From Mesorhizobium sp. (GTDB lineage Bacteria; Pseudomonadota; Alphaproteobacteria; Rhizobiales; Rhizobiaceae): a DNA stretch of 33,565 bases. The translations under genes and the position numbers were made by a program. The notes below the pieces were generated by a model. It was given only the letters and a program-made list of their open reading frames with translations. It had not been told where the DNA came from and made no database searches. This document shows, in pieces, positions 1,390-30,666 of the stretch (positions are counted from its first letter, which is position 1; each line of letters opens with the position of its first letter). The stretch is taken from assembly GCF_016793485.1 (NCBI RefSeq), contig NZ_JAEULZ010000004.1, positions 1-33,565 of the forward strand. The letters run 5' to 3'.

Positions 1390-1514
1390 CCTTCTCCCCG
1401 TTTACGGGGAGAAGGTGTCACAAAGTGACGGATGAGGGGCCGCGCTTCGTTTCGGAATGTTTGCGCTGCCCCTCACCTGCCTGCCGGCATCCTCTCCCCG
1501 TGAACGGGGAGAGG
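1390..1514. repeat. Palindromic repeat pair, family A copy 1 (27-nt spacer)
   Basis: Two hairpin units face each other. The left unit is an 11-bp stem (1390-1400 with 1405-1415, loop TTTA) leading to a GAGGGGC core at 1434-1440. The right unit is the mirror: GCCCCTC at 1468-1474, then a 10-bp stem (1491-1500 with 1505-1514, loop TGAA). The spacer between the cores (1441-1467) is 27 nt, the same as in copy 2 at 3431-3555. The element lies between convergent genes and its hairpins could also stop transcription. Confidence 0.8.
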
Positions 1515-3430: not shown

Positions 3431-3555
3431 TCTCTCCCCGCCTGCGGGGAGAGATGTCCGGCAGGACAGTGAGGGGCGGCGTTACAATTCGCGATCCGGG
3501 CGCTGCCCCTCATCCGTCACTTCGTGACACCTTCTCCCCGCGGGCGGGGAGAAGG
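3431..3555. repeat. Palindromic repeat pair, family A copy 2 (27-nt spacer)
   Basis: The architecture matches copy 1 in the opposite sense. A 10-bp stem (3431-3440 with 3445-3454) leads to a GAGGGGC core at 3471-3477. Its mirror has the core GCCCCTC at 3505-3511 and an 11-bp stem (3530-3540 with 3545-3555). The core-to-core spacer (3478-3504) is again 27 nt. It lies inside the sugar transporter operon between the binding-protein and first permease genes. Confidence 0.8.
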
Positions 3556-15442: not shown

Positions 15443-16729
15443 CTAGTCCACCAAGCCGTAAAGTCGCTCGCGGTAGCCAGCCTTGTCCTTCAGATATGTG
15501 GTTTTCAGCGTCTCGACAACATGCGCCCGCCAAAGCTCGGGCCACTCCTGATAGTCCTTATAGAAGCCCTGCTTGTTGAAAATGTAACGGGAAACGAAGT
15601 CTGAGGGCACGAAGTCTGAGATGAGCCGGTTGGTCAGCCACGCGTCGGGGTGGTCGGGCTTGGCGCGCACCACGAGGAAACGGTGCAGCGGGAAAATCTC
15701 CTCCAGCTTCAACTGGCCATATTGCGCGATCTCGCGCTTCGCCGCGTTGAGGAAGGGGAAGGTGCCTTCGCTGGCGATCAGTTGCGCGTTCTGGTGGATC
15801 CACGTCTGCAGCCAGACCTTGTCGAGTTGCCGGAGATCACGCTTCGGGTCGCTGTCGCGGATGAGGGTGCGCGTCGCCATCTCGGCGCGATGCTCGAGAT
15901 AGCCAGACGATTCCAGCCAGGAGGCGCGGGGGAGCTCGATGCGGCCGGTCGTGGCGAGAAAGCGGAAGACGCGGTCGGCATCGCGGATCGACAGATAGCT
16001 GACTTGCCATGGTCGCGAGCGGCGAAAGCCGGGCGCTGTGGGGTCGGAAATGACAGTTGTCATGTCCGGATCGACAAAGACGTAGAGGCCGCCGAAATGG
16101 CTGGTCCAGTAGGCGTTGTGACGGAAGATGACCTGGTCGGGAACCAGCGCGTTCTCCCTGATGTCGCCGGTCACCTTGGCCAGTTCCACCATCTCGTTCA
16201 GCATGGCGTCGTCGCGCCAGGCTTCCGGCTCCAGCTTCAGGCGGTCGACCAGCCGGCCAAGCTGAGCAGCCTTGCCCAGCACGTCCTCGGCCGACAGGAC
16301 GCGGAACTCGACCTGGTTGATGGAGAGCAGGTCCTCGATGTCCTCGACCTTGGAGACTGAATCCTCGATCTCGCCGTAGATGACATCCTTGATGGTCAGC
16401 GCGTCGATGGCGCGGGCGTTCTTCTCGAAGAACTCGAACAGAAGCTGCGAGGTGTTGGAGAAGGCCGTGTGGACGACCGGCAGCTCCTGCTGCGACGGCG
16501 TCAGGATGATGAAGCGGCGGTTGATCTCGTTAGGATCGAGATACTGATAGTCGCCGAGCTCTTCCGCGACCTGCGGGGAGAAGCCGCTGCGGTCGATCTC
16601 GAAGGATTTGAGCGCTGTGGGCTTCAAGCCGAAGGCGACAAGCGCCTTGTTGTAGCGGTCGATGAGATGCGGCTCCTCGACCGGCAGGAGCCGGCCGTAG
16701 ATGAGATCGTTGTCGCGCAGGAGGTCCAT
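15443..16729 (-). CDS. Uncharacterised 428-residue protein (possibly DUF6638)
   Basis: I do not recognise a catalytic motif. It is a soluble protein without signal peptide or membrane segment, rich in charged residues, starting MDLLRDNDLIYGRLLPVEEPHLIDRY. A central part (about 205-285) is richer in aromatics and beta-prone sequence (RHNAYWTSHFGGLYVFVDPD), and the C-terminus is helical and basic. I associate this sequence tentatively with DUF6638; that number is recalled, not checked. Its Shine-Dalgarno sequence (GGAGAAGGA) is provided by the arm of the repeat at 16734-16759, so translation depends on the inserted repeat. It follows the AAA+ ATPase gene in the operon except for the DUF559 cassette, and 33 nt separate it from the DUF2333 gene. 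Confidence 0.8.
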   Translation of the reverse strand: MDLLRDNDLIYGRLLPVEEPHLIDRYNKALVAFGLKPTALKSFEIDRSGFSPQVAEELGDYQYLDPNEINRRFIILTPSQQELPVVHTAFSNTSQLLFEFFEKNARAIDALTIKDVIYGEIEDSVSKVEDIEDLLSINQVEFRVLSAEDVLGKAAQLGRLVDRLKLEPEAWRDDAMLNEMVELAKVTGDIRENALVPDQVIFRHNAYWTSHFGGLYVFVDPDMTTVISDPTAPGFRRSRPWQVSYLSIRDADRVFRFLATTGRIELPRASWLESSGYLEHRAEMATRTLIRDSDPKRDLRQLDKVWLQTWIHQNAQLIASEGTFPFLNAAKREIAQYGQLKLEEIFPLHRFLVVRAKPDHPDAWLTNRLISDFVPSDFVSRYIFNKQGFYKDYQEWPELWRAHVVETLKTTYLKDKAGYRERLYGLVD

Positions 16730-16733
16730 CAGT

Positions 16734-16787
16734 CCTTCTCCCCGTTCACGGGGAGAAGGTGCCCGCAGGGCGGATGAGGGGCGGCGC
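16734..16787. repeat. Family A repeat unit, left border of the DUF559 cassette
   Basis: An 11-bp stem (16734-16744 with 16749-16759, loop TTCA) is followed by a GAGGGGC core at 16776-16782. This is the same unit as the left half of the pairs at 1390 and 3431. Its mirror image is at 17211-17259, on the other side of the nuclease gene. Confidence 0.85.
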
Positions 16788-16793
16788 TAACCT

Positions 16794-17204
16794 TCATGAC
16801 TTCTCCGCCGATCTTGCGGGGACGAAGCGCATGTCGGTAGCAACAAAACCATCGACCAGACGCCCTTCGAGCGCTTCGACGATCGTATCAAGGACGAGAC
16901 CGCGTTGCGTCAATACGTCGATGTTCCAGAATCGCAAAACCGACCAGCCATTCATAGACATTGTTTCGTCACGCATCCTATCGTAACCCGAATCCGCATG
17001 TTGGCTGCCATCTATTTCCACAACGATATTCTTTTCGCGGCATGCGAAATCGGCAAAGAACGGCCCGATCGGAAACTGACGGACAAATTTGTAACCGTTC
17101 AAGCGGCGGCCCCGCAGTTCGTGCCACATCAGTTCTTCCGCCTCGTTTTCGACCCTGCGAAGCATTCGGGATCGTGTGGTCTTGCTGGAATTTCCTCCAC
17201 GCAT
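16794..17204 (-). CDS. DUF559 family endonuclease-like protein
   Basis: This 136-residue protein has the Vsr-like PD-(D/E)XK nuclease fold typical of DUF559. After a basic helical N-terminus (residues 8-35, with LMWHELRGRRLNGYKFVRQ) comes the active-site region IGPFFADFAC (Asp52), then VVEIDGSQH (Glu63, Asp65, Gln68, His69), and the terminal WSVLRFWNIDVL. All expected acidic residues are present, so it is probably active on DNA. I set the start at 17204 because the 22 residues upstream in frame are a translation of the repeat. It lies inside the operon between the ATPase gene and the 428-residue gene, same strand, and is visibly poorer in G+C than both. It is probably a late arrival rather than an original operon member. 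Confidence 0.85.
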   Translation of the reverse strand: MRGGNSSKTTRSRMLRRVENEAEELMWHELRGRRLNGYKFVRQFPIGPFFADFACREKNIVVEIDGSQHADSGYDRMRDETMSMNGWSVLRFWNIDVLTQRGLVLDTIVEALEGRLVDGFVATDMRFVPARSAEKS

Positions 17205-17210
17205 TGCGTT

Positions 17211-17259
17211 GCCCCTCATCCGCCCTTCGGGCACCTTCTCCCCGTGAACGGGGAGAAGG
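17211..17259. repeat. Family A repeat unit, right border of the DUF559 cassette
   Basis: GCCCCTC core at 17211-17217, then an 11-bp stem (17234-17244 with 17249-17259, loop TGAA): the inverted copy of the unit at 16734-16787. It ends 3 nt before the ATPase stop codon. Confidence 0.85.
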
Positions 17260-17262
17260 GAA

Positions 17263-19173
17263 TTACGCATTCCACAATCCCTTCTGCTTCAGTTCCTCCA
17301 TTTCGCGGGCGGCGCGTTCGCGCAGGCGCTGGTCGCGCAGGAGTTTCTCGACGGCGGAATCGTCGGCGCGGTCGGAGTAGCGGAATTCGCTGTCGGCGTA
17401 GCGGTTGATCTCCTGCATGACCATGGCCATGTCGAAGGGGCCGCGCAGGTCCTCGATCATCGCCTTCTTGTCGTCGTAGGACTTGTGCATGAAGGTTTCC
17501 GGCTTCTCGAACCAGTCGTCGGGAAGCTCGATGTCCATGGCGCGCATCTTGATGGCGTCGGTGACGTTCTTGATGGCGCGGCCGGTGAAGCGCGGCTCGG
17601 CTTCCTTGATCAGATGCAGATATTCGCCGACATCGGCCAGCGTCTTCGGGTCGCCGTTCTCTTTCATGAAGCGCTCGTAGACCTTCATCAGGCCGTCCTC
17701 CTGCGGCTTCGCATGGCTTTCGTAGGCGGTGTCCACGGCGCGCTGGATTTCCTGCGCGGCGTAAAGCTCATGTTCGCCGAGCGGAATCTTGTGGTTCTTG
17801 CCGGCGAGCAGCACGAAGATGTCGATGTAGTCCTCGCGGGTCTGAGGTCCGTCGACCAGCCACCGCGCGCCCGCGCGCTGGCGCAGCGCGTCGTCGACAT
17901 TCTCGGGGTAGTTGGAGAACATCCCGAAGGAGCAGTTGCCGCGAATGACGGTCATCGCACCTGAGAAGGCCGACATGAGAACGCCGGTGATCTCGTGCTG
18001 GCCGGCCGAGGCGCGGTCGTCCGAGCGCTTGGCTGCGACCTGGTCGATGTCGTCGATGGTGCCGAAGCCTATGGCGCGCGGGTTGAGCACGTTGTCGATG
18101 AAGGCGCGGCAGTTCTGGCCGGACTTGCCCTGGTAGGACGAAATCTGGTCGACGCCGAAATTCTCATAGTGGAAAGGCCAGCCGGCGACCTGGCAGTAGT
18201 CGTTGACGAGGCCGGCGATCATCTGGATCAGCGTCGTCTTGCCGGTGCCGGGCGCGCCGTCGCCGATGAATGTGAAGAGGAAGCCGCCAAGCTCGACGAA
18301 GGGGTTGGACTGGCGGTCGAAGTCGTAAGCCATCAGCATCTTGGCGAGCTTGACCGACTGGAATTTTGCGATGTGGTTGCCGACGACCTCCTCGGGCTTC
18401 TTGAAGGTCATGACCAGGGGCTTGGAGCGCTTGCCGGGCGCGACATCGAAGCCGTCGAGCGTGAAATCGTCCGCGTCGATGCGGATATGCGCGTCCTCGA
18501 AGGCACCGAGACCGTCGAAGCGGCCTTTGCGGGTGAGCAGCCCGTCGATGGCGACCCGGGCGAAGGTCTTTGCGCGCAGGGTAATATCTGTGTCCGCCTT
18601 CACGCCAGCGAGTGCGGCGTCCAGCCCCGCGATCATCGACTTCAACGCGTCCTGCGGCGTGTCGAACAGGAAATCGGGTTCCTTGACGTCGTTCGGCGCT
18701 TCGCCGTCGACTTCGATGAGTTGCGAAAGGTAGGAGGCGAAGGCGAAGGCGGCGACATAGGCGGATGCCGACAACAGCTTCTTGAAGCGGGAGGCTTCCT
18801 CGCCTTCGAGCGGCGCGCGGGCGTTCTTGGCCTGCAGGCTCTCCAGTTCGCCGGAGCGGGAGAAGACGTCGGAGACGGCCAGCGCAATGGCGAGTCCGCG
18901 CCGCGCACGGTAGAGCAGTGTGTGCTGGGCGATCGACATGAGTTGGTCGTCGGGCTTCACCGAGGCGACCGTCTTCGACAATTCGACCTCTCGCGTCTTG
19001 CGCACCGAGCCGGTGGAGACGGTCGAGACGAAGCGTCGGCCGGTGCCGGCAAGCGCGGTCGAGGACTGGCCGGACGAATCCTCCAGCACGACGATGCGGG
19101 TGATCATCGACTGCGCCGTGGCGCGATGCTTCTCGATGTCGGCTTCGGGGATGGTGGTCAGGCCTGTGTCCAT
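17263..19173 (-). CDS. AAA+ ATPase
   Basis: This 636-residue soluble protein has an N-terminal region of about 300 residues without recognised domains, then one AAA module. Walker A is GDGAPGTGKTT (304-314), Walker B is GFGTIDDIDQV (370-380), a sensor-like strand ISGAMTVIRGNCSFGMFSNYP follows in modified form, and RQRAGAR (431-437) supplies likely arginine fingers. The C-terminus is strongly charged and helical. Such ATPases assemble as rings and remodel protein partners; its partners are probably encoded in the same operon. The start at 19173 lies 2 nt after the fic stop, with AAGGA upstream; longer in-frame versions run through fic and are rejected. The ATG context and spacing indicate coupling to Fic. 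The specific role is unknown. Confidence 0.9.
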   Translation of the reverse strand: MDTGLTTIPEADIEKHRATAQSMITRIVVLEDSSGQSSTALAGTGRRFVSTVSTGSVRKTREVELSKTVASVKPDDQLMSIAQHTLLYRARRGLAIALAVSDVFSRSGELESLQAKNARAPLEGEEASRFKKLLSASAYVAAFAFASYLSQLIEVDGEAPNDVKEPDFLFDTPQDALKSMIAGLDAALAGVKADTDITLRAKTFARVAIDGLLTRKGRFDGLGAFEDAHIRIDADDFTLDGFDVAPGKRSKPLVMTFKKPEEVVGNHIAKFQSVKLAKMLMAYDFDRQSNPFVELGGFLFTFIGDGAPGTGKTTLIQMIAGLVNDYCQVAGWPFHYENFGVDQISSYQGKSGQNCRAFIDNVLNPRAIGFGTIDDIDQVAAKRSDDRASAGQHEITGVLMSAFSGAMTVIRGNCSFGMFSNYPENVDDALRQRAGARWLVDGPQTREDYIDIFVLLAGKNHKIPLGEHELYAAQEIQRAVDTAYESHAKPQEDGLMKVYERFMKENGDPKTLADVGEYLHLIKEAEPRFTGRAIKNVTDAIKMRAMDIELPDDWFEKPETFMHKSYDDKKAMIEDLRGPFDMAMVMQEINRYADSEFRYSDRADDSAVEKLLRDQRLRERAAREMEELKQKGLWNA

Positions 19174-19175
19174 GA

Positions 19176-19967
19176 TCACGTCCTTGTTTGACTTGCCCGG
19201 CTCGCCGGAAGGGCCTCGGCCTGCGCGCGCCGCGCGGCTCCCAGAAAAGTATCCAGCGTGCTGTCGAGCCGCTGGAAGAAGAATTCGCTCAGCGCCTTGT
19301 TGTCGTCGTTGCGCAGGCCTTTGCCGATCGCCTGAGAATAGGTGGAATAGTCCTCCGGTCGGATCGCGATGAGCGGAAAATCGCAGCGGGCGAGCAGCCA
19401 GTTTGTGAGCAGGCGCGCGGTGCGGCCGTTGCCGTCGTTGAACGGGTGGATGGCCATCAGCCGGAAATGCGCCTCGAAGGCGGTTGCCGGTTCCTTTGGC
19501 GCGGGTGCGAGCCAGGCGCAGAAGTCGGCCATCAGGGCCGGTATGCCGGCCGATCCGAGGAAGTCGATCGCGCCCGCCTCGGTCTCCATCCTGCGCGGTT
19601 TGTCGGCATAGCGTCCGGAAATTTCGGGGATCGACTGGCACACCGCAAGGCGGTGAAGATGGCGTATGTCCGACTCGGCGATTGGAGCGTCGGGTTTTGT
19701 CGAGGCCTGTACGATCCAGTTGATCGCGCCGGCGTGCTCGGCGGTTTGCAGATGATCCTTGAGCGGCCTGCCGGTGAACGTCATTCCCTTTTCAAGGATG
19801 AGCGCCGTCTCACCCGCGGTCAGCGCGCTGCCGTCGATGGCGTTGGACGCGTAGGTGATGCCGATCAGGTGGTTGTGCTCAAGGGCGGAAAGCGCGTCGG
19901 CCGGCAGCGCATGACGCAGCGCATCCAGTTCCCATTTCTTGGCGAGCACCACGTCGGCAAGCGTCAT
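19176..19967 (-). CDS. Fic family protein (probable AMP transferase)
   Basis: This 263-residue soluble protein has a complete Fic core, HPFNDGNGR (His174-Arg182) followed by TAR, the signature of enzymes that transfer AMP from ATP to a hydroxyl side chain. The substrate-loop and flap region precede it (about 118-150). The N-terminal helix holds SNAIDG (41-46), at the place where autoinhibited Fic proteins have (S/T)xxxE(G/N): the inhibitory glutamate is replaced by aspartate. The rest of the N-terminal domain (LTAGETALILEKG, then GRPLKDHL) matches the common stand-alone Fic group. Its stop is 2 nt from the start of the AAA+ ATPase gene and its start is 30 nt from the preceding gene. The ATPase or another operon product may be its target. 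Confidence 0.93.
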   Translation of the reverse strand: MTLADVVLAKKWELDALRHALPADALSALEHNHLIGITYASNAIDGSALTAGETALILEKGMTFTGRPLKDHLQTAEHAGAINWIVQASTKPDAPIAESDIRHLHRLAVCQSIPEISGRYADKPRRMETEAGAIDFLGSAGIPALMADFCAWLAPAPKEPATAFEAHFRLMAIHPFNDGNGRTARLLTNWLLARCDFPLIAIRPEDYSTYSQAIGKGLRNDDNKALSEFFFQRLDSTLDTFLGAARRAQAEALPASRASQTRT

Positions 19968-21170: not shown

Positions 21171-21335
21171 GTCGCGCCCCCCTCTGTCCTCCCGGACATC
21201 TCCCCCACGAGGGGGGAGATTGGCTGGCGCGACAACGTTCGCCAATGTTCGCTACTGCGATATGGGCGCTGCCACATACGAAGGCTGATCTCCCCCCGTG
21301 TGGGGGAGATGTCCGGCAGGACAGAGGGGGGCGAC
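21171..21335. repeat. Palindromic repeat, family B copy 1 (67-nt spacer)
   Basis: A left arm at 21171-21220 beginning GTCGCGCCCCCCTC and ending GGGGGGAGAT is mirrored by a right arm at 21288-21335 beginning ATCTCCCCCC and ending GGGGGGCGAC. Each arm also contains its own hairpin (ATCTCCCCC with GGGGGGAGAT). The spacer is 67 nt, as in copy 2 at 30502-30666, although the spacer sequences differ. It sits between the first and second genes of the AAA+/Fic operon. Confidence 0.85.
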
Positions 21336-30501: not shown

Positions 30502-30666
30502 GTCGCGCCCCCCTCTGTCCTGCCGGACATCTCCCCCACGAGGGGGGAGATTACGCTGTCGCCAGCGCGCCGCCCAATCCTAGAGGTTGCAGGATTGGCG
30601 GGACCATTGAAGCTGCCGATCTCCCCCCTCGTGGGGGAGATGGCCGGCAGGCCAGAGGGGGGCGTC
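30502..30666. repeat. Palindromic repeat, family B copy 2 (67-nt spacer)
   Basis: Left arm 30502-30551 (GTCGCGCCCCCCTC to GGGGGGAGAT) and right arm 30619-30666 (ATCTCCCCCC to GGGGGGCGTC) have the same layout as copy 1 at 21171-21335. The spacer (30552-30618) is 67 nt, the same length as in copy 1 though the sequence differs. It lies between the two large membrane-protein genes. Confidence 0.85.

Follow-up and report, generated by a model that had tools for sequence, protein, structure and literature searches.

DUF559 nuclease genes enclosed by inverted palindromic repeats: a candidate REP/RAYT-like partnership with an unrelated enzyme

Repetitive extragenic palindromic (REP) elements are tied to REP-associated tyrosine transposases (RAYTs) by three features in PMC2817692: inverted repeats flanking the enzyme gene, co-segregation, and correlation with repeat abundance. 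PMC2817692 and PMC3116915 also describe divergent enzyme copies, mostly vertical descent and coevolution. Here we analysed a stretch of 33,565 nucleotides (nt) from Mesorhizobium sp. (NCBI RefSeq assembly GCF_016793485.1, contig NZ_JAEULZ010000004.1, positions 1 to 33,565; hereafter the window), in which a DUF559 gene, encoding a predicted Vsr-like nuclease, lies between two inverted palindromic units. With a probability of roughly 0.6, we read this repeat-DUF559-repeat arrangement as a REP/RAYT-like partnership with an unrelated nuclease, the whole being an autonomous member of a REP-like family.

Several other described repeats resemble those of the window. The intrastrand triplex motifs of E. 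coli, earlier named BoxC and PIT and known since the 1990s, have the consensus CCCTCNCCCN3-6GGGNGAGGGN3GGGNGAGGG (TM_ECO) according to PMC4666352, in which a G/C-rich triplex motif was counted in more than 260 genomes; strain MG1655 holds 23 TM_ECO copies, ten of them in five inverted pairs, with variable neighbourhoods, and the paper reports that the surroundings of the E. coli sites yielded no transposase or integrase remnants. The window units are likewise intergenic, some of them in inverted pairs, and all ten share the layout of pyrimidine arm, loop, purine arm, loop and mirror purine strand, a likeness of layout only, as read from the sequence; they differ in that a small stem separates the hairpin from the third strand and in not matching the exact TM_ECO consensus, of which no copy was found in the window and 400 kb of its own genome. 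The CGTC-tagged REPs are mostly alphaproteobacterial, abundant and without a dedicated transposase (PMC3733652). The window repeats are similarly abundant palindromes without a known transposase, but their sequence is different and no CGTC tag was seen in the window units. From REPs in general the units differ, by reading, in having GAGGGG-type cores, no GTAG/GTGG tag and an additional mirror-image third strand. The RIME elements of rhizobia, for which PMC2573895 cites Osteras 1995, are another possible likeness, being reportedly intergenic, about 100 bp long and composed of two palindromes.

In the window, the left repeat unit (16734..16782, forward strand) consists of a pyrimidine/purine hairpin, CCTTCTCCCC-GTTCAC-GGGGAGAAGG, followed by a small second stem and then an inner core, GGATGAGGGGC. 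The right unit (17211..17259, reverse strand) is an inverted copy of the left one, and over 54 nt the arms at 16734-16787 and 17206-17259 show 94% complementarity. The original prediction had claimed that this filled pair shares its hairpin and core plan with two empty pairs (family A; 1390..1514 and 3431..3555), and that the cores are 428 nt apart in the former and 27 nt apart in both of the latter. Re-reading bore out both points, with the filled-pair cores at 16776-16782 (GAGGGGC) and 17211-17217 (GCCCCTC), and the empty-pair cores at 1434-1440 and 1468-1474 and at 3471-3477 and 3505-3511.

The gene between the units (16794..17204, reverse strand) was assigned to DUF559 by its Pfam match (PF04480, E=1.4e-31, 109 bits vs a gathering score of 20.6), predicted fold and conservation. 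It measures 411 nt (136 amino acids, aa) if ATGCGTGGAGG is taken as the start codon, which was chosen by reading; other possible starts are an upstream ATG within the right core and a still longer one in the list of open reading frames (ORFs). Between the gene and locus L021, differences at the three codon positions are 0.27, 0.20 and 0.52, showing that the gene is under constraint. In an alignment of up to 166 rows, E30 (162/163), D59 (163/165), E70 (161/166), D72 (162/166) and H76 (159/166) are conserved (residues numbered along window:16794-17225:-), and, judging by the fold, these may form the catalytic core of the predicted nuclease. The Vsr-type fold claimed in the original prediction is upheld by the structural model, which resembles the homing endonuclease I-Bth0305I and Vsr. 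The genome of the window has six DUF559 genes (seven matches, two of them halves of one gene), of which five lie, by reading, between palindromic units, four as inverted pairs by the score described below; at L001, similar units stand at both sides partly in direct orientation. The sixth gene (L007, G000:C49:599713-600026) is distributed over two reading frames, with a complete repeat pair on its downstream side only, and is probably a decaying copy.

To quantify the pairing, the 300 nt upstream of each gene were compared with the reverse complement of the 300 nt downstream, and the best local match was taken as the flank score, with a threshold of 36; the window unit scores 93. Inverted palindromic arms at or above this threshold enclose 108/180 DUF559 loci, all sets together, the loci being phylogenetically non-independent. 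The enrichment check proposed in the original prediction came out clearly, with 52/100 loci of the family set having such arms compared to 2/652 control genes (0/318 in 400 kb of the own genome and 2/334 in 20 other genomes, called by a crude longest-ORF script). Arms were also found at 14/29 loci of the phylum set (the 29 best-scoring new DUF559 loci), 20/26 loci of genus g73, 11/14 loci from other orders and classes of the phylum, and 7/7 testable named GTDB loci, including those of Mesorhizobium sp. Root554, Rhizobium dioscoreae and R. rhizogenes. The 180 loci include eight from a plasmid collection, four with arms (L271, L272 and two others) and four without (L242, L269, L270 and L273). 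None of 30 PIN-domain genes and none of six Y1 transposase genes reached the threshold, and flanks of different DUF559 loci paired at random did so in 7% of cases.

In a looser test, 149/165 DUF559 loci have a pyrimidine-arm hairpin no more than 300 nt away on one side or the other (85/96 of the family set, 28/29 of the phylum set and 36/40 later loci), compared to 11/652 control genes, none of which has it at both sides, and 0/29 PIN genes. For later counts the family set was reduced to 96 loci by dropping a 31-residue fragment (L017) and three weak matches (L130-L132, two of which lie inside frames longer than 1000 aa), none of them with arms; the 40 later loci comprise 14 hand-picked ones and the 26 remaining matches listed in seven g73 genomes, from which one short fragment was dropped. 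Loci cut by contig ends were left out, namely L056 from the junctions below, L207 from the named loci and L300 from the PIN set in the hairpin test. The control genes and control DNA rule out chance or composition as the cause, and the pairing of DUF559 with repeats is no local accident.

The repeats themselves follow one plan. The core GGATGAGGGGC mirrors the purine arm of the left hairpin with one mismatch, and in each of the ten window units examined a pyrimidine arm, loop, purine arm and small stem are followed by a purine strand that mirrors the purine arm, differing from it by no more than one mismatch. When 45 nt were inspected on each side, this strand was found on that side in 10/10 units and on the opposite side in 0/10. 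It faces the middle in the family A pairs and at both flanks of the window DUF559 gene. Of the 368 hairpin readings in DUF559 flanks of the family set, 180 have a mirror strand behind the purine arm, near-palindromes being counted on both strands. When the two empty family A pairs were folded as DNA, z values of -9.3 and -7.5 were obtained. Within 11 junction loci the two arms are more similar (0.85) than arms of different loci (0.61 and 0.66), the within-locus value being favoured by the manner of choosing arms, whereas the six loci with family A arms show no difference (0.86-1.0 within, against 0.90 and 0.95 between). These values do not establish that the two arms of a locus evolve in concert.

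The association extends to E. coli, whose ycjD is a DUF559 gene (PF04480, E 1.4e-49). Exact TM_ECO consensus copies lie within 300 nt of 10/29 phylum-set DUF559 loci, but of 0/96 family and 0/40 later loci; none was found in 833 kb of control DNA from the window's family, which is a weak control because the family itself lacks the exact consensus. Downstream of ycjD there is one exact TM_ECO unit in L304 and two on opposite strands in L270, and no unit was found in stretches from three strains without ycjD. The order sapF-ycjD-fabI was seen in L304, L270 and L348, and a sapF-ycjD query was covered to at least 80% in 3364/5426 E. coli genomes. In the three ycjD-negative stretches read (L305-L307), ycjD is missing and another gene follows sapF, so a clean E. 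coli empty site was not found among them. Among 59 chromosomal records spread through the ranking (H250, a plasmid record, being left out of 60), the 37 with ycjD have between 16 and 34 matching places (median 22), against 3-24 (median 8) in the 22 that lack it, the count including the sapF/ycjD place itself and the correlation being confounded by lineage, because low counts and the absence of ycjD may be inherited together. A PF04480 profile search of the control E. coli genome gave no match, whereas ycjD of an E. coli laboratory strain matches PF04480 strongly.

Enzyme and repeat are also coupled by kind. We sorted the arms into family I (CTTCTCCCC or CCTCTCCCC hairpins with a GGRTGAGGGGC core), II (CCTCCCC..GGGTGGGGT), III (..GTGGAGGGGGC), IV (identical with window family B), V (CTTCTCCCCTTGTGGGAGAAGG..GGATGAGGGGTG) and VI (with a long second stem, AAGAGAGGGG). 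Along the order of the DUF559 tree, neighbours tend by reading to have common arm families. When each neighbourhood is represented by a single locus (38 loci), the arm similarity between nearest protein neighbours is 0.44, exceeding all 2000 permutations (maximum 0.355). In other genomes, family B units also stand on either side of clade IV DUF559 genes, and family B hairpins have a median of 15.5 in 12 clade IV genomes vs 1.0 in 26 genomes with other DUF559 genes (p=0.007; clade IV assigned by eye), while hairpins of other families are not in excess in the clade IV genomes (p=0.57). Across 61 genomes, the 38 with DUF559 have a median of 34.5 exact hairpins and none has zero, whereas the 23 without it have a median of 0, with 12 at zero (p=4e-6; after allowing for genome size, the partial rank correlation is 0.53), G045 being scored as DUF559-free since its sole match sits in a 1908-aa frame. 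The own genome has 102 exact hairpins vs 4 for the reversed pattern. In one genome, G053, there are 406 hairpins, 289 of them of family B, each count about three times the next highest of the 61 genomes.

These results bear on the analogy with RAYTs drawn in the original prediction. The three features given in PMC2817692 were all found here: the DUF559 gene is enclosed by inverted repeats, enzyme-specific and often in inverted pairs, and the number of repeats tracks the enzyme. Each genome holds few, divergent enzyme copies (1-9 DUF559 matches), as with RAYTs, and coevolution is seen strongly among nearest neighbours and weakly by the Mantel correlation given below. The spreading that the analogy also implied stays conditional: the nuclease would cut the repeat, and the cutting would drive spread. 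The enzymes differ in that DUF559 has a Vsr-like nuclease fold rather than that of an HUH tyrosine transposase, and the window protein has no Y1_Tnp match. That a RAYT or insertion sequence (IS) transposase is the mover and DUF559 its cargo might be thought from REP-type repeats being tied to RAYTs elsewhere (PMC2817692 and PMC3116915); in a survey confined to Y1_Tnp, matches were lacking in 55/61 genomes, the own genome included, and 0/6 Y1 genes were flanked by arms. We thus reject a RAYT as the mover and give next to no credence to the cargo reading as a whole. Compared with a classical insertion sequence, terminal inverted arms are present (101 nt at L179, with an 8-nt repeat, GGTGCCGC, at both ends) and flanking duplication is marginal; the exact boundaries of L179 gave no result among 30 junction loci of its genus, the empty allele having diverged, and among its junction relatives L213 is empty and L212 and L214 carry other repeats.

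Filled and empty states of the same site were then compared, as had been suggested for the ATPase locus. The window unit separates an AAA ATPase gene upstream (17263..19641, reverse strand, stop codon 17263-17265, ORF start uncertain) from a DUF6638 gene downstream (15443..16729, reverse strand, by profile match). Empty sites do exist: among four genomes of the genus, the whole unit is present in G000 and G001 and not in G002 and G003, where the repeat-free junctions consist of TGATCATG (G002) and an overlapping TGATG (G003). The genus and family searches gave 31 junctions, of which 30 were readable; by reading, 11 have DUF559 with repeats, five repeats without DUF559, five neither and nine other genes. 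The last nine (L053, L065-L067, L069, L074-L077) have small genes that read like antitoxin-PIN pairs, with no flanking repeat in the sequence ends read. The junction (window 16729-17263) looks like an insertion hot spot.

The homing proposal, in which a break made by the nuclease in an empty repeat pair is repaired from a filled one so that the gene moves from pair to pair, draws on three observations: I-Bth0305I is the nearest solved fold outside DUF559 in the comparison of the structural model, the gene sits where the 27-nt spacer lies in empty pairs, and 5/30 relatives have repeats without the gene at the junction. It is not favoured by the two nearest empty sites (G002 and G003), which have no repeat at all, and DUF559 here differs from Vsr-like homing endonucleases in having no intron or intein setting; we regard such homing as doubtful.

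A nuclease kept near its repeats without mobility, either resolving or trimming their hairpins or triplexes or being regulated by them, would also explain part of the data. Close DUF559 copies occupy the same site, so over short periods inheritance is mainly vertical. In the right unit the GAGGGG core stops 6 nt ahead of the chosen start codon (window 17202-17217), where a ribosome-binding site would be expected, and the inner GAGGGG strand may serve as such for the window gene. PMC4666352 moreover describes the neighbourhoods of triplex repeats in E. coli as unstable. Against a resident role, DUF559 units are spread over many unrelated neighbourhoods (75 loci fall into 38 clusters), they are present or absent at orthologous junctions, and related enzymes keep their own repeat family, for which a guardian of all hairpins would have no need. 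We consider this explanation unlikely.

We therefore return to the REP/RAYT-like partnership. In many of the bacteria examined, E. coli among them, DUF559 stands beside or between repeats of one style, and it is accordingly a good candidate for the enzyme, so far missing, by which such repeats are made or spread. In the mechanism we propose, the repeat-DUF559-repeat unit would be the autonomous member and the empty pairs the non-autonomous members of the REP-like family. The small Vsr-fold nuclease would recognise its cognate repeat, whose hairpin and mirror-image purine strand could in principle fold into an intrastrand triplex, and would nick it in the single-stranded or extruded state. The repeat pair, and rarely the whole unit, would then be copied into new intergenic sites by repair or re-joining. 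The wider proposition that DUF559 proteins are phylum-wide repeat-associated nucleases spreading triplex-forming palindromes by a non-RAYT mechanism, with YcjD behind BoxC, seems to us evenly poised.

The following points weigh against the partnership. No pair of loci with more than 90% gene identity was found at different sites, and direct flanking duplications are marginal, 6/200 permutations being equally good. By flank score 72/180 loci lack inverted arms, including E. coli ycjD, whose units are all downstream, and no hairpin is nearby at 11/96 family loci. The mirror strand stands ahead of the pyrimidine arm, on the wrong side, in 63/368 readings, perhaps through neighbouring units. The global Mantel correlation is weak (r 0.13, with 111/2000 permutations as high, one locus per neighbourhood), and 9/23 DUF559-free genomes have at least five hairpins. 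In E. coli, four ycjD-negative records have 17-24 places. The own genome has 37 exact family B hairpins, yet none of its six DUF559 genes seems by tree order to belong to clade IV; these hairpins are possibly an orphan repeat population. Finally, PMC12907096 connects the Caulobacter DUF559 protein VsrA with DNA damage that occurs when a cytosine methyltransferase is missing from the cell, and proposes it as a mismatch-repair enzyme.

This last point, with the link of VsrA to a solitary cytosine methyltransferase in the same source and the Vsr-like fold of the structural model, would fit a DUF559 family of mismatch-repair enzymes with incidental repeats nearby. Incidental repeats, however, would neither flank 108/180 loci nor follow the enzyme clade, and the window protein reaches 13.2 bits against the curated Vsr endonuclease model TIGR00632, whose cut-off is 97.85; we judge this explanation very improbable.

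If correct, the partnership would give a biological role to DUF559, still of "unknown function" in Pfam, and would mean that a REP-style partnership also arose with an enzyme unrelated to RAYTs. With one repeat class tied to a named enzyme family that has a member in E. coli K-12, an old question becomes testable in a laboratory strain. No title or abstract of the open-licence literature searched linked DUF559 to such repeats, ycjD having been searched only in combination with other terms.

In the window, no Rfam RNA matched at gathering score, and PADLOC matches of 15 and 10.5 bits, to portions of far larger models, do not qualify the DUF559 protein as a clear-cut known defence protein. Two pairs of family B are present, one at 21175..21333 (ATCTCCCCC..GGGGGAGAT, core AGAGGGGGG), with hairpins towards the middle and cores outward, opposite to family A, and one at 30506..30664 in the same orientation. 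In the empty family A pair at 1390..1514, the cores face the middle; at the matching intergenic site in congeners (L244 and L245), a family V pair is present in one and an element that is half family V and half family II in another, so one site hosts repeats of several families. The left unit of the pair at 3431..3555 has a second stem resembling that of family B, and this site could not be anchored in relatives. The Deinococcus plasmid gene L271 has short inverted hairpins (score 41), and the pairing may therefore extend to another phylum. In L240, a Sinorhizobium meliloti record, a DUF559 gene follows an ATP-binding protein gene like that of the window and is bracketed by two repeat pairs; an ISRm16 copy close behind the right-hand pair seems to cut it.
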